In this document: piece after piece, positions 2,374 to 10,872 of the stretch
Layout: every line of letters starts with the position of its first letter
How positions within the stretch are numbered: position 1 is the first letter of the stretch
Assembly (NCBI GenBank): GCA_023511625.1
Contig: JAIMBD010000001.1
Span: 248,001-312,000 of the forward strand
Origin: Bacillota bacterium
GTDB lineage: Bacteria; Bacillota; Sulfobacillia; Sulfobacillales; Sulfobacillaceae
Length of the DNA: 64,000 nt
Reading direction: 5' to 3'
The notes under the pieces: generated by a model
The model's database searches: none
What the model was told of the DNA's origin: nothing
Seen by the model: only the letters and a program-made list of their open reading frames with translations
Position numbers and translations under genes: made by a program

Positions 2374-3438
2374 GTGGCGGCGGCAATGGACCCAGAGGCG
2401 GCTTTTACCGCCAACGAGTACTATTTCGAACAAGGGTGGGCCGATGGCCTGCCGGTCATCCCTCCCACGCCGGAGCGGTTGCAGGCTTTCCTGGCGACCA
2501 CCGACCGGGCTCCAGACGAGGTCTTGTGGCGCATGGAGGCCTTGGGGCGCGAGTGCACGGTGGAATTGGCGGCCATCAACGCCATTTTGGCCGGATGCCG
2601 GCCCGAGTATTTCCCAGTCGTGCTGGCGGCGTTTGAGGCCGTGGTAGACGAGGGGGCTCCGGCCATCGGGGCATGGCAAAGTACCACCGGAGGAGCGCCG
2701 ATGCTCATCGTCAACGGCCCCGTGCGCCAAAAGCTGGGGTTCAACGCGCGGGGCAACGTGTTCGGCCCCGGGTTTCGCGCCAATGCCACCGTCGGTCGGG
2801 CCATCCGGCTCATCATCGCCAACGTCTTCGGCCTGAAGCCCCACGAACTCGACCAGGCCACCCAAGGCACGCCGGGCCGCTACACGCTCTGCATCGCCGA
2901 AAACGAAGAGGAGAGTCCCTGGGAGCCGCTGCACGTTCAGTTGGGTTATCGACCCGAAGACAGCGTGGTCTCGGCCTTACACATCCGCAGCTGCGACTTC
3001 GTCGACAACCGGCACACCGAAGACCCCGAGGCCATCCTGTTTGACCTGGTCGACACCGTGTGTCGCACCGGCGTCCTGGTGCGCCCTCAGCAGTGGGCCA
3101 TCTTGGTGATGGGGCCGGAACACGCCCAACAGTTGGCGCGCCGCGGCTACTCCAAACGCGACGTGCAGCAGTACGTGTACGAGCACGCCGGCCATCGGGT
3201 GGCGGAATTGGCCAAAGTAGGCAAAGACGGCATCGAAGAGCCGATTCGCTTCACGCGGCCCGCGACGCCAGAAGAGCAGGCGGCGACAGCGCCAGACACT
3301 TGGCGGCCGTATCTCGCCTCCCCCGACCACGTGTTGGTGGTGGTGGCCGGGGCGAACAACGGCGGAGTCTCCACCGTGGTGCAGCCGTTCTCCAATCGGC
3401 GCAAGTTTCCCGGCACCGCCTTGGTGCAAAGCCGCTGA
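2374..3438 (+). CDS. DGLPV-motif conserved protein, paralog 2
   Basis: A 354-residue paralog of the preceding protein; the two align without large gaps over nearly the full length, so this is a tandem duplication. GTG 2374 follows GGAAAGGAGG by seven bases. It keeps DGLPV (D24), RECTVE (C61), AGCRPEY (C75), QSTTG, GPGFRANATVGRAIR, CIAENEE and GPEHAQ. It replaces the CC pair of paralog 1 with LC and differs most in the C-terminal 60 residues. The retained diads suggest both copies keep the same fold and perhaps form a hetero-oligomer, which is inference. The catalysed reaction is unknown. It is the last gene of the 2-3438 cluster. Confidence 0.85.
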   Translation: MAAAMDPEAAFTANEYYFEQGWADGLPVIPPTPERLQAFLATTDRAPDEVLWRMEALGRECTVELAAINAILAGCRPEYFPVVLAAFEAVVDEGAPAIGAWQSTTGGAPMLIVNGPVRQKLGFNARGNVFGPGFRANATVGRAIRLIIANVFGLKPHELDQATQGTPGRYTLCIAENEEESPWEPLHVQLGYRPEDSVVSALHIRSCDFVDNRHTEDPEAILFDLVDTVCRTGVLVRPQQWAILVMGPEHAQQLARRGYSKRDVQQYVYEHAGHRVAELAKVGKDGIEEPIRFTRPATPEEQAATAPDTWRPYLASPDHVLVVVAGANNGGVSTVVQPFSNRRKFPGTALVQSR

Positions 3439-4151: not shown

Positions 4152-4526
4152 GCTCTGCTCCCTCCCCAACCTGGTCGAACTCCGGTACCCGCGCCGTCTT
4201 CCCGTTGGCGCCGTTTCTCGTGCGGACCCGGGGCCTTTTGGGTCCCCTTCGGGCCTTCTGCCTTCCTGCGCCTAGCCCCTCTCGCTGGTCTTTCTTCTGC
4301 ATCCTAACCGTGACCTGTTAAGGGGCGATAAACCCCGCATAAATTCGCCGTTAAGGCCCGGTAAGCCATCGGCCCTTTTAGGGCATTTGGCCTAACCCAA
4401 ACTTCATTGCGGCGCAACGCCGCCTTCCCGGGATGTTAATGCCGCTCTGCTGTACTGAAAGACGAAGGCTCGAAAGGCGAAAATCTGCCGCCGGCGACCA
4501 CAGGGAGCGGCGGCTTTGGGGAGGCG
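4152..4526. other. divergent intergenic region upstream of surE
   Basis: 375 bases without a gene between a minus-strand ORF and surE. Its right part (4315-4440) is less GC-rich than its surroundings and carries several TTAA-containing words plus a GGGG/CCCC inverted repeat (4322-4338). It probably holds the promoter of surE, but no convincing -35/-10 pair was found. The surE ribosome site TTTGGGGAGGCG ends at 4525. Confidence 0.4.
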
Positions 4527-5336
4527 ATGCGGGTGTTGGTGGTGCTGACCAACGACGACGGGATCGCGGCGGTGGGGCTCAAGGTCCTGACGCTGGTGGC
4601 GCGCGGGCTGGGGAGCGAGATCGCAGTGGTGGCCCCAGGCGAGGATCGGAGCGGTCAATCGCAGGCGATTACGGTAGCCGGGCCGGTGGAGTGCGAGGGA
4701 CGGCCGGATGCGGCGCCGCTGCGCCGGTATGCAGTCCGCGGGACCCCGGCCGATTGCGCCCGCCTCGTGGCCGGGGGGTGGCTCGGACAAAAGCCCGACC
4801 TTTTGATGGCGGGGGTCAATCACGGGCCCAACTTGGGCGAAGACATCTACGCCTCTGGCACCGTCGGGGCGGCGCGCTTGGCGGCCTGTCGCAAGATTCC
4901 TGCCGTCGCGGTGTCCTCGCTCAGCAGCGACTGGGCGTGGGTGGCCAAGACCCTCCTGCGCTACCTGCCTCTGGTGGCCGGCTGGGCCGTGGCCTGGCCT
5001 GGAGTGGTCTTTAACCTCAATCTGCCCCCGTTCGGGGGCCAGATAGCGCGATGGACACGGCTCAGCCGCGGCTGGTTCGAGGAGCAGCTAGAGGTTGGGG
5101 ATCAGGGGGCGGGTCGGCGTGACGCCGTGCGCTTCGTGCGACGTCGGCTTCCCCACACACCGTTTGCCGCCGAGGACGCCAGTGCCGTTACCAGTGGCAT
5201 GGTCTCGGTCACGCCGCTTGCGGTCTGGGACGGGGTCGATATCTGGGAAATGCTGGGGGTCCAGCCCGGCGAGCCCTTGCAGGCGCCGGCGGTGACGTGG
5301 GACGCGGCCGCCAGCCCCCGGCCCGTCTGGGGCTAG
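4527..5336 (+). CDS. surE: 5'-nucleotidase SurE
   Basis: SurE is a metal-dependent survival-protein phosphatase that dephosphorylates nucleoside 5'- and 3'-monophosphates and, in characterised members, cleaves short polyphosphate. The 269-residue length fits the family. The N-terminal LTNDDGI block (N9, D10, D11) supplies the metal ligands. A conserved serine-containing GEDRSGQSQ loop follows, and GVNHGPNLGEDIYASGTVGAA contains the family asparagine and the YxSGTVGAA signature (here YASGTVGAA). It starts at ATG 4527 behind GGGGAGGCG. The EAL-domain gene begins 11 bases after its stop, so the two are probably one transcript. This places a nucleotide phosphatase beside c-di-GMP turnover genes and phosphate-permease homologs. 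Confidence 0.93.
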   Translation: MRVLVVLTNDDGIAAVGLKVLTLVARGLGSEIAVVAPGEDRSGQSQAITVAGPVECEGRPDAAPLRRYAVRGTPADCARLVAGGWLGQKPDLLMAGVNHGPNLGEDIYASGTVGAARLAACRKIPAVAVSSLSSDWAWVAKTLLRYLPLVAGWAVAWPGVVFNLNLPPFGGQIARWTRLSRGWFEEQLEVGDQGAGRRDAVRFVRRRLPHTPFAAEDASAVTSGMVSVTPLAVWDGVDIWEMLGVQPGEPLQAPAVTWDAAASPRPVWG

Positions 5337-5347
5337 CCGGGGCAAAG

Positions 5348-6187
5348 ATGGGGGCGATGGCAGTGGCGGTGGGCACGGCGTCGAGCGAGCTTAAGGCGGC
5401 CGTGGAGGCTCCCAGTCGCTGGCAAGGACATGTTTTGGGAATCCAGACGGCGTTTCAGCCCATCCGCCGACTCGACACCTTGGCGGTCGTCGGCTACGAG
5501 GCACTGTTGCGGATAGTGGACCGTTGTTGCCGCAAACCGATCGCCGTCCCGGAGTGGATCGCCGCCTACAAGGTAGAGGGCGGGACGGAGGCCTTGGGCC
5601 ACGCCGAGCGGTGGTGGTGGACGCACCATCTTCAGCGCGCGGCGGGGTTGGGCGCGCCCGGTGGGCGGTGGCTGTTTCTCAACGCCGAGCCGCGTACGCT
5701 CCTCGGACAAGACCTTGCAGGGCTGGGCGGAGACGGCCAGGGATGGGGCCGCCGGGTAGTGGTGGAGGTCACCGAACGCGAGCGCGAGACCTTGACCCGC
5801 AGCGAGTGGGACGCCGTGGGACGGGCCATCCGCGCCCAGGGTTGGCAGGTGGCCCTCGACGACTGGGACCTCCTTGCCGGTGACTGGAGTGCCATCGAGG
5901 GCCTGGCGCCAAACTGGATCAAGATTCCGGCACCGGCGCTGTCTGGTGTCCGGGGAGATGAAGACGCGGCGCGCGCGCGGGTGGCGGCATTGGCCACGGG
6001 GGGGATCCGGGTGGTGATGGAGGGGATTGCCGACGCCGACGTTCTTCAGTCCGCCCGCGCCTTGGCGGTGCCGTTCGGACAGGGGTATTTCTTGGGCCGG
6101 CCGCGTCCGATCTCTGATGGGAGCGCCTCGCCTCGGAAGGGGAGCTCCGGCGCCTGGGGTCCCGGGAAGGGGTCGCACCGAGTTTAA
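5348..6187 (+). CDS. EAL-domain protein (c-di-GMP phosphodiesterase-like)
   Basis: A single-domain EAL protein of about 279 residues, with no membrane segment or attached sensor. The EAL signature is YEALLR (E51). It is followed by LNAEP (substrate Asn), VVVEVTER (ExxE metal site), LDDWD (the usual DDFG pair of aspartates), WIKIP (catalytic lysine), VMEGI (glutamate of the EGVE strand) and FGQGYFLGRP (QGY). Thus the metal and catalytic residues persist, but loop 6, normally DFGTGYSS, reads DWDLLAGDWS. Loop 6 controls dimerisation and activity, so it may be weakly active or a binding protein. The start is taken at ATG 5348, just after surE; ATG 5357 is an alternative. The next gene carries GGDEF. 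Confidence 0.85.
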   Translation: MGAMAVAVGTASSELKAAVEAPSRWQGHVLGIQTAFQPIRRLDTLAVVGYEALLRIVDRCCRKPIAVPEWIAAYKVEGGTEALGHAERWWWTHHLQRAAGLGAPGGRWLFLNAEPRTLLGQDLAGLGGDGQGWGRRVVVEVTERERETLTRSEWDAVGRAIRAQGWQVALDDWDLLAGDWSAIEGLAPNWIKIPAPALSGVRGDEDAARARVAALATGGIRVVMEGIADADVLQSARALAVPFGQGYFLGRPRPISDGSASPRKGSSGAWGPGKGSHRV

Positions 6188-6228: not shown

Positions 6229-8601
6229 GTGGAGCAGACGGCTCAGAGCGTGCTCCAGGTGCTAGACGAAACGCCGGTCACGCCCTACCACTGGCGGACC
6301 ATCCTCACCACCGGTCTTGGGTTTTTTACCGATGCCTACGACCTTTTCATCATCGGCACGGCGACCAGCTGGCTTGCACCCCGCTGGCACCTCGGCGCCT
6401 GGCAGGTAGGGCTTTTGAACAGCACGGCACTCTTGGCTTCGGTGGCCGGATGCCTCGGACTGGGATGGTGGATGGATCGCCTCGGGCGACGGGCGCTCTA
6501 CGGGCTCGAAGCGGCGCTTCTGACGGTGGGGGCGGTGGTCTCGGCGCTTGCGCCCAATTTTTTAGGGCTGTTGTCGGGGCGCGCCCTGGTGGGACTAGGG
6601 GTGGGGGGCGATTATCCGGCCAGCGCCGTCATCGTCAGCGAGTTTGCCAACCGCTCCGACCGCGGGCGGCTGGTGACGCTGGTCTTCGCCATGCAGGGGC
6701 TCGGGCTTTTGGCGGGGCCGGGTGTGGCGTTGGCCCTCGCGGCACTGGGACTCGAAGGCCGTTGGGGTTGGCGGCTTTGCCTCGGCTTGGGCGCCGTTCC
6801 CGCCCTGGCCGCGTTTTTCTTGCGGCGGGGCATGGCCGAGACGCCGCGCTTTGCCCTGCATGTGCGCGGAGACGTGGAGGGGGCCCGGGCGGCGGTAAGC
6901 CGCGTCGTCGGCGGCCGAGTGCCGAGTATGGCTCCGGCGCGCAGTGCCGTACCGCCTTCGGAGCCGTGGCGGCTATTTCGTCCCCCGTTAAGCCGCCGGT
7001 TGGCGGCGGCGACGGCGGCGTGGTTTTTGGTCGATGTCGCCTTTTACGGGCTTGGGATCTTCTCGCAACCGGTCTTGGCGCAGTTAGGCCAGGCCCTTCC
7101 GGGATGGTCGCCCCCTGCGCTTGCGCTGGCGGTGTTCGCCCTAAGCGCCCTGCCCGGCTACCTGGTTGCGGCATGGCAGATGGACCGCATGGGCCGGCGC
7201 GCCATCCAGACCCTGGGGTTTTCGGTGATGGCCGCAGCATACGCCCTGCTGGCGGTGATGGCCGGCCGGCCTCTCTCCAATGGGCTGCTGCTCGTGATCC
7301 TGTATGCCCTCAGCTATTTCTTTGTGGAATTCGGGCCCAACGCCACCACCTTTCTTTATCCCTCGGAACTGTTTCCCACGCCGGTGCGCGGTCAGGGCCA
7401 CGGCATTGCAGCTGCGGGGGGCAAGCTCGGGGCGTGGTTGGCAGCTTTTTGCTTTCCGTGGGCGCTTTCGGCCCTCGGAGCCCGGGTGGTGTTTTTCGGA
7501 TTGGCCGGCTCGGCCCTGGCCGGCGTGGCGGTCACCTGCCTTCTGCTCCCGGAACCCAAGCGACAGAGCTTAGAAGAGCTCAGCCACGGTTCGGGCGCCA
7601 CCTTGCACGAGACCTACTCGCGCATCCTGGAAGCCTTGAGCCAAGAGCGGGTGGCCGACGCCATGGCGGCCGAGGCGGCCATCTTGACCGGGGCCGACTG
7701 GGCGCTGGTGCACGAGGTCGAAGACGGGCGCAGGCGCTATGCGCTGCGGGGGTGGTACCCGCCAGAGGCGGCGCGGCTGCTGGCGGAGGACGGGGGGCCG
7801 GCCGCGGGGCTGGTGGGACAGGTGGACCGCTCCCGGCAGCCGGTGTGGATCCGGGGCGGGGCCGGGGAACGCTTTGGGCCTGCCCGCTCGGCCGTGGCTT
7901 TGCCCCTGGTCGACCGGACCCAGATGGTCGGGGTGTTGAGCCTTTGGCACCGCGATGCCGACGGCATGGGGGCGGCCCAAGTCCAGGCCCTGGGCCGATT
8001 TTTGCGGGTGGCCGCTTTGGCGCTGGCCTATCAGCGCCAATACCGGTCTTTGGCCGAACAGGCCCTGACCGATCCCCTGACGCAGCTCTTGAATCGGCGC
8101 GGGCTCGAACTCGAAATCGAGCGCCGGCGAGGACTCGCGGCGCGCTTTGCCTTTGTGCTTTGGGATCTCGACCGCTTCAAGGCCCATAACGATACCTGGG
8201 GCCACCAGAGCGGGGACGCCGTGCTGGCGGCCATCGGTGAGCACCTGCGGGCGGTGTTGGGCCCCAACGATGCCGCCGCGCGCCTCGGTGGGGACGAGTT
8301 TATCCTCCTCCTGGACGGCACGGCTACCCCTGAAGCGGCGCGGGCGCAATTGGCGGTCCTGGCTCCGGACGCCCTGCTGGCGCGATTTGGCCTTGGCCTC
8401 AGCATGGGCATCAGCCTCTATCCCTTGGATGGCGATACCTATCAAACCCTGTACCGCGTGGCGGACCGGCGGCTTTACGCCGCCAAACAACGCGGAGGCG
8501 GCCGGGCCGTGGCGGGCGACGACGAGGGAGCGCCGCCGCGCGATCCGCGGGCCTTCACCAATCCTTCACCACACGTTAACACACCCTTCGCCGGGGATTA
8601 A
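6229..8601 (+). CDS. phosphate-permease-type MFS transporter fused to GAF and GGDEF domains
   Basis: A 790-residue fusion. Residues about 20-450 form a complete 12-helix MFS transporter of the phosphate:proton symporter (PHS) type: GLGVGGDYPASA, DVAFYGLGI and FGPNATTFLYPSELFP closely match the PHS signatures known from Pho84-like permeases, and PEPK (441-444) is the usual MFS tail. Residues about 463-605 look like a GAF domain. Residues 613-770 are a diguanylate cyclase domain with DPLTQLLNRR, WDLDRFKAHND and an intact GGDEF (687-691). The RxxD inhibitory site before GGDEF reads GPND, so classical product inhibition is probably absent. ATG 6229 follows AAAGGAGGAG. This suggests transport-coupled c-di-GMP synthesis at the membrane (inference). 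It lies 41 bases after the EAL gene. Confidence 0.92.
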   Translation: MEQTAQSVLQVLDETPVTPYHWRTILTTGLGFFTDAYDLFIIGTATSWLAPRWHLGAWQVGLLNSTALLASVAGCLGLGWWMDRLGRRALYGLEAALLTVGAVVSALAPNFLGLLSGRALVGLGVGGDYPASAVIVSEFANRSDRGRLVTLVFAMQGLGLLAGPGVALALAALGLEGRWGWRLCLGLGAVPALAAFFLRRGMAETPRFALHVRGDVEGARAAVSRVVGGRVPSMAPARSAVPPSEPWRLFRPPLSRRLAAATAAWFLVDVAFYGLGIFSQPVLAQLGQALPGWSPPALALAVFALSALPGYLVAAWQMDRMGRRAIQTLGFSVMAAAYALLAVMAGRPLSNGLLLVILYALSYFFVEFGPNATTFLYPSELFPTPVRGQGHGIAAAGGKLGAWLAAFCFPWALSALGARVVFFGLAGSALAGVAVTCLLLPEPKRQSLEELSHGSGATLHETYSRILEALSQERVADAMAAEAAILTGADWALVHEVEDGRRRYALRGWYPPEAARLLAEDGGPAAGLVGQVDRSRQPVWIRGGAGERFGPARSAVALPLVDRTQMVGVLSLWHRDADGMGAAQVQALGRFLRVAALALAYQRQYRSLAEQALTDPLTQLLNRRGLELEIERRRGLAARFAFVLWDLDRFKAHNDTWGHQSGDAVLAAIGEHLRAVLGPNDAAARLGGDEFILLLDGTATPEAARAQLAVLAPDALLARFGLGLSMGISLYPLDGDTYQTLYRVADRRLYAAKQRGGGRAVAGDDEGAPPRDPRAFTNPSPHVNTPFAGD

Positions 8602-8681
8602 CCGGCGCTTGGTACGGTGGAGGCGAAGGCGGCGCCGGAGCGGCGAAAGAGGCGAGGCGCCGCGGGAGAGGAGGAGCCGGC

Positions 8682-9377
8682 GTGCCGGTGATCGTGGCCG
8701 CCGAACCGGCCCGGGCAATGGCGTGGCGCGCGTGGATGGAGCCGGGGGAAGAGGTCCGGCCGGCGCACACCTTAAACCAATTGCTGGCGCTCCTGAGCCG
8801 CGCCCAGGGCGGCCAAACCGAGGTGTGGCTCGATCCGGCGTGGGTGGAGCCTGGGTGGTGGCCGGGCATCTTGGCGCTGGCGGCCATCGTGGCCGTGCCC
8901 ATCTGGGTGGCCGTGGAAACCGCCCGGGGTTGGGAATGGTGGGAGATGCGGCGCGACGAGCCGGAGCGTTACCGCCCCGCCCCGTCGGGGGGGTGCGTGG
9001 AGCGGGTGCCAGGACAACCGCTGAGGCATCGGGGCCAGCCGTTGGCGCTGTCGCCCCGCTTGACGGCACTCTTGGAAGTTTTGTCGCAAGGGCAACCGGG
9101 GCACGCCTGGACCCTTCCCGCGATCAACCAGGCCTTGGCCGCCCGAGGGTTGCCGCCCCTGTCTCGTCAGGCGTTAAAAGTGCACATCCATGCCTTGCGC
9201 GACCGTCTCGGCCCCGAGCACCTCAAAACGCTGCCGCGCTACGGGTACCAGTGGCAACCCTGCGGGGACAGGCGAGAGGGCGCGCCGGGAGGTCCAGCGG
9301 TCGAATGCGGGGCCGTGGGCGGGGGGCGGGCGACGTGCGGTCCTAGCCCGCCACGCTCTGGCGTGTTGCGGAGGTAA
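8682..9377 (+). CDS. OmpR/PhoB-family regulator with degenerate receiver domain
   Basis: The C-terminal half (residues about 112-195) is a winged-helix DNA-binding domain of the OmpR type: LALSPRLTALLEVL, then SRQALKVHIHALRDRLGPEHLKTLPRYGYQW matches the recognition helix and the GY hairpin. The first 100 residues show an alternating strand/helix pattern like a receiver (VIVAAEP, EVWLDPAW, PIWVAVET, YRPAP). The strand-3 aspartate and the strand-4 threonine are present, but the N-terminal acidic pair is reduced to one Glu and the conserved Lys is Arg. It is probably a pseudo-receiver that does not use normal phosphorylation. GTG 8682 follows GAGAGGAGGAG. It lies between two PHS-type transporters, so it may control one or both; no histidine kinase is nearby. 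Confidence 0.82.
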   Translation: MPVIVAAEPARAMAWRAWMEPGEEVRPAHTLNQLLALLSRAQGGQTEVWLDPAWVEPGWWPGILALAAIVAVPIWVAVETARGWEWWEMRRDEPERYRPAPSGGCVERVPGQPLRHRGQPLALSPRLTALLEVLSQGQPGHAWTLPAINQALAARGLPPLSRQALKVHIHALRDRLGPEHLKTLPRYGYQWQPCGDRREGAPGGPAVECGAVGGGRATCGPSPPRSGVLRR

Positions 9378-9459
9378 CGGCTGCGGCGGCTGGTCGCCGC
9401 GCGGTGGTGACTGGGAACGGTTGGAGGGCGGAGCGATACGGGAGGAGGTACTCGACAGT

Positions 9460-10872
9460 ATGGAAATGGCCGAGCCGAGGCCAGGCATCCGCGATGAGGT
9501 GCTCAGGCCGCTGGAAGAGGCAGGGTTGAAGGGGTTTCACTGGCGCACGTGGCTTACGGCCGGGATGGGGTTCTTCACCGACGCCTACGACCTCTTCATC
9601 ATCGGCGTGGTGACGACGCTGTTGGTGCCGCTTTGGCACTTGACGACGCTGGAGTTGATGTTGCTCAACAGCTCGGCCCTAGCCGCCTCGGTATTGGGAG
9701 CGCTCATCTTCGGGCGGTTGATGGACCGCTGGGGGCGCAAGGCCGTATACGGCATCGAGGCGCTGTTGTTGACGGTCGGGGCGCTCCTTTCGGCCTTCTC
9801 GGTCAACTTCTGGATGTTGTTCGCGCTGAGGTTCCTCGTGGGGATGGGAGTCGGCGGGGATTACCCCATGAGTGGGGTGATCATGAGCGAGTACTCCAAC
9901 CGCAAGCGCCGCGGGTTTTTGGTCAATGCCGTCTTTGCCATGCAGGGGTTTGGCCTCCTCATCGGTCCCTTGGTAGCCTACCTCCTGCTTCAGACCGGCG
10001 TGCCGACGCAGTCGGCGTGGCGGATCATGTTGGGGCTCGGCGCCGTGCCGGCGGCCGTGGTGATCTACCTGCGGCGGCGGATCGCGGAGACGCCGCACTT
10101 TGCGGCAGGAGTGCAGGGAGACGTCAAGGCGGCCGCGGAGACGGTCTCGCGCCTGACCGGGACGGCGGTGGCGGTAGAGGGCAAGGCGCCCGCGCTGCCC
10201 CAAGACGCGGGCCTGCTCTGGCGCCGTTACCTCGGCACCTTGTTGGGCACGGCCCTGTGCTGGATGCTCCTCGACATGGCCTTTTACGGCAACAGCGTCT
10301 CCTCGGGACTGATCCTCAAGGCGTTGGAACCGCATGGTACACTGGCCGGCAACACCTTGACCTCGCTCTTGATTTTCCTCGTGGCGGCGGCACCGGGGTA
10401 TTGGGTCTCGGCCCTGACCATTGACCGCCTCGGGCGGCGGCGCATCCAGGTGTTGGGGTTTTCGGTCATGGCCTTGGCCTACGCCGCGCTGTGGCTCATC
10501 CCCGGCATCGCCGAGCGGCCGGAGGAATTCCTCCTGGTCTACGCCGTGAGCTACTTCTTCATCGAATTCGGGCCCAACAGCACCACCTTTGTCTACCCGT
10601 CGGAGGTGTTTCCGGTCACTGTGCGGGGGATTGGGTTCGGCGTGTCGGCCTCGGCCGGCAAGGCCGGTGCAGCCGTGGCCACGTTTCTCTTCCCCCTCCT
10701 GCTCTTGCACCTTAAGCTGTCTGGCACCATGGGGCTTTTGGCCGGGATCTCGGCCTTGGGGGCCCTTCTGACGCTTGGGCTCTTGCCAGAACCGAAGGGA
10801 CAGACGCTACGCGAAGCGTCGGGGGAGGACCGGTTGGAGACCGAGGCGCCGATGCAGGCGATCTCCGGCTGA
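9460..10872 (+). CDS. MFS transporter of the phosphate:proton symporter type
   Basis: A 470-residue transporter closely related to the MFS half of the GGDEF fusion two genes upstream but without added domains. ATG 9460 follows GGGAGGAGGT. Shared PHS signatures are GMGVGGDYPMSG, DMAFYGNSV, FGPNSTTFVYPSEVFP and the tail LPEPKGQTL. Both proteins keep GMGFFTDAYDLF or its equivalent in helix 1. The likely substrate is inorganic phosphate or a phosphate-like anion in symport with protons, by family; other small anions are possible. It is the last gene of the surE-to-MFS cluster and ends at a strong inverted repeat. Confidence 0.88.
   Translation: MEMAEPRPGIRDEVLRPLEEAGLKGFHWRTWLTAGMGFFTDAYDLFIIGVVTTLLVPLWHLTTLELMLLNSSALAASVLGALIFGRLMDRWGRKAVYGIEALLLTVGALLSAFSVNFWMLFALRFLVGMGVGGDYPMSGVIMSEYSNRKRRGFLVNAVFAMQGFGLLIGPLVAYLLLQTGVPTQSAWRIMLGLGAVPAAVVIYLRRRIAETPHFAAGVQGDVKAAAETVSRLTGTAVAVEGKAPALPQDAGLLWRRYLGTLLGTALCWMLLDMAFYGNSVSSGLILKALEPHGTLAGNTLTSLLIFLVAAAPGYWVSALTIDRLGRRRIQVLGFSVMALAYAALWLIPGIAERPEEFLLVYAVSYFFIEFGPNSTTFVYPSEVFPVTVRGIGFGVSASAGKAGAAVATFLFPLLLLHLKLSGTMGLLAGISALGALLTLGLLPEPKGQTLREASGEDRLETEAPMQAISG

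Follow-up and report, generated by a model that had tools for sequence, protein, structure and literature searches.

The window, the 64 kb stretch of DNA analysed here, encodes a single-chain protein that begins with a PHS-type MFS transporter and continues with GAF and GGDEF domains, in that order. Judging from sequence, this fusion probably serves as a phosphate-sensing receptor derived from a PHS-type symporter, induced by starvation and setting c-di-GMP synthesis, with the product of an EAL-domain gene acting in opposition; it looks like a single-protein phosphate sensor governing bacterial lifestyle. The window belongs to a 2.59 Mb draft genome in 40 contigs (G000), and was compared with the sole other genome of the genus (G001).

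A PHS-type transporter joined to GAF and GGDEF domains

The reading frame of the fusion opens with GTG, preceded by a Shine-Dalgarno-like AAAGGAGG read from the sequence, and runs for 790 codons with zero internal stops (Table 1), one continuous frame as the preliminary description of this DNA had it. The motifs listed in that description (GGDYP, DVAFYG, FGPNATTF, GGDEF at 687-691 and GPND at the inhibitory I-site) were all found, and its reading of the domains as PHS-type MFS, GAF and GGDEF is backed by Pfam and, for the transporter, by NCBIfam. Pfam Sugar_tr matches residues 58-452 (E 3e-51, above cut-off). Among the curated transporter models of NCBIfam, that for the phosphate:H+ symporter, TIGR00887, comes out on top at E 1e-81, with the runner-up at 3.6e-38. 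The score, 275 bits, is below the TIGR00887 equivalog cut-off of 610, as are those of the stand-alone bacterial relatives (at most 332 bits in a phylum sample with three candidates scored per genome), and we therefore class the fusion as a PHS relative, not as a TIGR00887 equivalog.

Table 1. Features of the window around the fusion gene
Feature	Position	Strand	Basis or detail
Degenerate PHO-box-like element upstream of surE-EAL-fusion	4389..4450	+	Local alignment with the G001 element
surE-like 5'-nucleotidase/phosphatase gene, immediately ahead of EAL	4527..5336	+	Pfam SurE, E 2.6e-40
EAL-domain gene, candidate c-di-GMP phosphodiesterase	5348..6187	+	Pfam EAL, E 6.6e-21; possible starts 5297, 5348, 5357
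Fusion gene, PHS-type MFS - GAF - GGDEF, 790 aa	6229..8601	+	ORF, Pfam, NCBIfam, ortholog, AlphaFold2 model
PHS-type MFS domain, residues 1-452, 12 TM helices	6229..7584	+	Profiles, alignment, model
GAF domain, residues 473-599	7645..8025	+	Pfam E 7e-9, above cut-off; model
Single long helix, residues 589-612, GAF-GGDEF connector	7993..8064	+	AlphaFold2 secondary structure
GGDEF domain, residues 612-757	8062..8499	+	Pfam E 4e-34, above cut-off
PHO-box-like array, five 11-bp direct repeats	8554..8603	+	Top-scoring site in the 64 kb window
Gene whose product has a weak PhoB/OmpR-type DNA-binding domain at its C-terminus	8682..9377	+	Pfam Trans_reg_C, E 1e-5, slightly below cut-off
Second, stand-alone PHS-type permease gene	9454..10872	+	TIGR00887, E 1.8e-92

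An AlphaFold2 model built from 26 sequences (mean pLDDT 87.7, pTM 0.70) sets out, in order, 12 long helices in the MFS fold, a short linker, a GAF fold, the long connecting helix and a GGDEF fold; confidence is low at residues 455-457 of the linker and over the last 23 residues, which are missing from the ortholog described below. As modelled, the connecting helix appears to be of the signalling-helix kind and may function as such. A Foldseek search of the PDB ranked PiPT, a fungal phosphate transporter, first along with its variants, and rice PHT1-11 shortly after; structural Z-scores fail to split PHS proteins from sugar porters, so the family assignment is the one made from sequence.

The same fusion in the sister genome

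G001 carries an ortholog (L024:7980-10343) with the same architecture end to end, at about 55-57% identity (57% over 2-769): about 62-63% in the MFS domain, 39% in the GAF domain and 60% in the GGDEF domain. In a tree of MFS domains the two fused copies make up one clade, with 100/100 support and a long stem, so that a single fusion event accounts for both. A joining of two genes by sequencing or assembly error, for which the preliminary description had allowed near residue 450, might be imagined in a draft of 40 contigs; the presence of the same fusion, more than 40% diverged, in an independent genome of the same genus excludes it, and we regard the chance of an artefact as practically negligible.

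The fused MFS domain has diverged faster than its free-standing counterparts, with 62% identity between the two species as against 81% and 85% for two pairs of stand-alone permeases from the same genomes. One or both fused copies are altered at 29 of 142 otherwise conserved positions; both are altered at 16 positions that are constant, or nearly so, among the stand-alone permeases. This faster evolution, together with the low identity of the GAF domains, would also fit relaxed constraint, a point against the receptor reading.

Residues of the transporter pocket and the cyclase

Eight residues of the fusion, D128, Y129, Q156, W265, D269, Y273, N371 and K399, align with D149, Y150, Q177, W320, D324, Y328, N431 and K459 of PiPT, the last seven of which we take to be phosphate-pocket residues; in the alignment none of the eight differs from PiPT in either fused protein, and almost all stand-alone relatives share them too. 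Solved structures of the PiPT mutants Y150A, D324E, Y328F and K459Q, found among the Foldseek PDB matches, support the pocket assignment, and so does work on yeast Pho84. There the counterparts D178, Y179, D358 and K492 act in transport and signalling, and loss of D358, which corresponds to D269 of the fusion, abolishes transport and largely spares signalling (PMC5159500, PMC3824880).

On the cyclase side, the GGDEF motif is intact and both copies retain D646, K651, N654 and D655 for metal and substrate, which leaves the catalytic residues intact. The RxxD inhibitory site, common in diguanylate cyclases and not required, is lost in both: it reads GPND here (G678..D681) and APGE (A..E) in G001. 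With the pocket and cyclase residues intact both halves look able to work, and with the I-site lost the cyclase should be free of the usual product inhibition.

An EAL gene accompanies the fusion among phosphate genes

Immediately upstream of the fusion lies an EAL-domain gene that the preliminary description had missed. It ends 41 bases ahead of the fusion in the window, and its ortholog in G001 (L024:7193-7972, 39% identity) ends 7 bases ahead, EAL being directly upstream of the fusion in both genomes. On the predicted activities of the two enzymes, the output of the fusion is c-di-GMP, which the EAL protein would oppose.

The order in the window is surE, EAL, fusion, then the gene for the DNA-binding protein and the second PHS permease, which the tree places as ortholog of a stand-alone permease of G001 (G001:C250) and not of the fusion. 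In G001, pstB-pstS-pstC-pstA come directly after the fusion; the corresponding stretch of the window genome, nth then pstBSCA, is without the EAL-fusion pair, which lies ~41 kb away. These differing places imply that the pair moved as a unit. Both of its homes sit among phosphate genes, though in the window genome these are other phosphate genes and the pair is not beside pst, which counts against the receptor reading. Both species retain several stand-alone PHS permeases as well as pst.

The window genome has two pst sets (G000:C3:213009-217000 = L048:7010-10970, and L049): one has a strong PHO-box-like array and lacks a neighbouring PhoU, the second has PhoU and a PhoR-like PAS-HisKA kinase adjoining and no such array. 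Positions 1210-2310 and 2374-3438 of the window hold two tandem similar genes of ~360 codons, with no clear Pfam family.

PHO-box-like repeats

PHO boxes are 11-nt direct repeats, with GTTCACC as the form in Streptomyces coelicolor (PMC4415409). An array of similar build, TTCACC N5 TTCACC N5 TTAACA N5 TTCGCC N5 TTAACC, overlaps the fusion gene at its 3' end and precedes the next genes; the protein encoded directly behind it, with its weak DNA-binding domain, could be an atypical regulator. The pattern TTMACM N5 TTMACM has seven occurrences, in five places, in the whole window genome and 0 in the reversed control. Three of the five places belong to this array, to the pst operon and to a PHS paralog that has an ArsB gene as neighbour. 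At L072:1549-2883 the gene of an ArsB-type arsenite pump adjoins a PHS permease with a PHO-box-like array, an adjacency that suggests a link of phosphate uptake with arsenate entry. Among the pattern places of G001, one lies before an ABC ATPase gene and another between phosphoesterase and undecaprenyl-diphosphatase-like genes, on the same contig as surE. Two pattern sites, G000:C5:61877 and G001:C219:4406, have flagellar genes close by in each genome; they were rejected as PHO boxes and taken for probable ordinary promoters. A TTAACAcgtttTTAACA-like element is kept at these two sites, near flagellar export genes.

Scored with a weight matrix, the site upstream of pstB in G001 reaches 25.0 bits (95% of shuffles <14.0), and the site upstream of the EAL-fusion pair in G001 is weaker, at 16.0 bits (95% of shuffles <10.6; shuffled maximum 16.5, 200 runs per 16 kb). 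The latter element aligns with the one upstream of surE-EAL-fusion in the window, CTAACC N5 TTCATT N5 GCAACG N5 TTCCCG N5 TTAATG, in which the 11-bp phase is kept and the units are degenerate: the alignment score is 27.5, shuffles giving 11.1 +/- 1.8 with a maximum of 17.5 in 500. Of 19 stand-alone PHS genes in related genomes, 12 have an upstream site (shuffle p < 0.01), a count that does not amount to 12 independent events, since one of the 12 helped to train the matrix and some of the genes are closely related; some PHS-like genes of this clade are without a site. In sum, strong PHO-box-like repeats precede pst and PHS paralogs and mark the end of the fusion gene, and weak but conserved ones precede the fusion operon; this weakness, like the lack of a site at some PHS-like genes, counts against the receptor reading. 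The EAL-fusion operon is probably under Pho control. The assignment to phosphate made in the preliminary description gains strength from the pocket residues, the pst and surE neighbours and these repeats, and phosphate is, by inference, a well-supported candidate for the ligand of the MFS half.

A possible mechanism and its alternatives

Scarcity of phosphate would lead the Pho regulator to turn on the EAL-fusion operon. Phosphate binding to the MFS half, or passing through it, would shift its conformation between inward and outward, TM12 and the 440-472 linker would relay this shift to the GAF domain, and the connecting helix would determine how two GGDEF domains pair, with a change in c-di-GMP synthesis as the result. 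The operon-mate EAL protein would remove c-di-GMP, the two proteins tuning its level by phosphate. As to the sign, our guess is that c-di-GMP would go up with phosphate and down in starvation. That phosphate controls the cyclase, by passage or occupancy as the preliminary description proposed, we infer as the natural reading. The proposal can be taken further, to a one-chain bacterial phosphate transceptor in which transport by, or occupancy of, a true PHS symporter sets c-di-GMP and the EAL protein is the off switch—in effect a Pho84 of prokaryotes that brings along the enzyme for its second messenger; this we hold tentatively, as somewhat short of an even chance.

A sub-case of the receptor reading, differing from it only in respect of transport, is that the MFS half binds phosphate and no longer carries it. 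The faster evolution of the fused domain would suit such a receptor, as would the 16 positions changed in both copies and the cover of bulk uptake by stand-alone PHS permeases and pst in both species; Ks-Amt5 provides a precedent (PMC5764959). Every checked pocket and proton-coupling residue is kept, however, and among them is D269: that it is preserved, though loss of its counterpart D358 in Pho84 largely spares signalling, makes it seem that transport is selected for. As regards the MFS half, then, its faster evolution somewhat favours a receptor, and its unchanged proton and pocket residues somewhat favour a transporter; we look on loss of transport as quite possible without being probable.

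Other readings dispense with phosphate control of the cyclase. Small-ligand binding and dimer contacts are common roles of GAF domains, and the GAF half of the fusion is diverse (39% identity between the species), as could be expected if the MFS half only tethered a GAF-controlled cyclase and the GAF domain sensed another ligand. We think this unlikely: a 12-helix permease with an intact pocket in both species exceeds the needs of an anchor, and phosphate genes surround the fusion in both places. The signal might also run from the soluble half to the transporter, with the GAF-GGDEF half gating or localising an active permease. The intact transport residues are in keeping with this, but intact GGDEF catalytic residues and an EAL gene paired with the fusion in both genomes fit enzyme output better, and the I-site, at which regulatory GGDEF domains usually bind c-di-GMP, is lost; we rate control in this direction as quite improbable.

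Relation to known systems

How a transporter can double as a receptor is an open question, pursued for the most part in yeast, whose transceptors have their output in separate proteins. In the fusion the transporter and its readout enzyme share one chain, so that purified protein could allow a direct measurement of substrate-dependent signalling, and pocket mutations already known to abolish transport could be used to take it apart; the receptor reading, if true, would also add a direct route from phosphate to c-di-GMP that bypasses transcription. Transporter-like receptors with fused enzymes, a PHS transceptor in yeast, and an effect of phosphate on c-di-GMP via RapA are already known.

CbrA has an SLC5 fold, a STAC linker and a kinase output, and hence neither the MFS fold nor c-di-GMP. 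Its likeness to the fusion is in having transporter and signalling domain in one chain (STAC/CbrA are mentioned in PMC11109136). The 5TMR/S-component receptors have a membrane fold shared with transporters and are often joined to GGDEF, and also to EAL outputs, but theirs is the small ECF S-component fold and not a 12-helix symporter (PMC11109136). According to a 2024 survey, strictly defined membrane transceptors are few and had until then been reported only in eukaryotes (PMC11109136). One of the yeast proteins, Pho84, is a PHS phosphate:H+ symporter and a transceptor signalling to PKA (PMC5159500, PMC3824880). Pho84 and PiPT are of the same family as the fusion by sequence, with the same pocket and proton residues; Pho84 likewise combines transport and signalling in one protein, but partners relay its signal to PKA and it has no output domain in the chain, whereas the fusion is bacterial and has a covalent GAF-GGDEF output. 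The Kuenenia ammonium transporter-histidine kinase Ks-Amt5 is similar in using a transporter domain as sensor and a C-terminal signalling enzyme; it differs in its Amt trimer fold, its ligand, ammonium, its histidine kinase, its lack of a GAF domain and its loss of transport (PMC5764959). In Pseudomonas fluorescens Pf0-1, phosphate sets c-di-GMP through RapA, a Pho-controlled EAL phosphodiesterase; control there is transcriptional only, whereas the fusion has a permease-like domain within the cyclase itself and an EAL gene paired with it (PMC3032545).

Occurrence of the architecture

The architecture is present in 2 of the 154 genomes of the class. Searches that reach relatives of the fusion protein gave no further fusion among the 40 remaining genomes of the order, nor, starting from the GAF half, beyond the pair in the 154 class genomes, and none of 72,556 plasmids gave a match covering 80% of the fusion query. 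Candidates rejected were the long frames around other PHS matches (L025, L027, L028), which are upstream read-through and not extra domains, and the GGDEF proteins of 700-750 codons (L036-L039), whose N-termini are non-MFS. The preliminary description knew of no described MFS-GAF-GGDEF protein, and in the open-licence literature, too, no description of an MFS or PHS transporter joined to GGDEF was found. PHS-type permeases are mainly known from eukaryotes; in this bacterial order they have multiplied, with several per genome, many of them with PHO-box-like repeats upstream.
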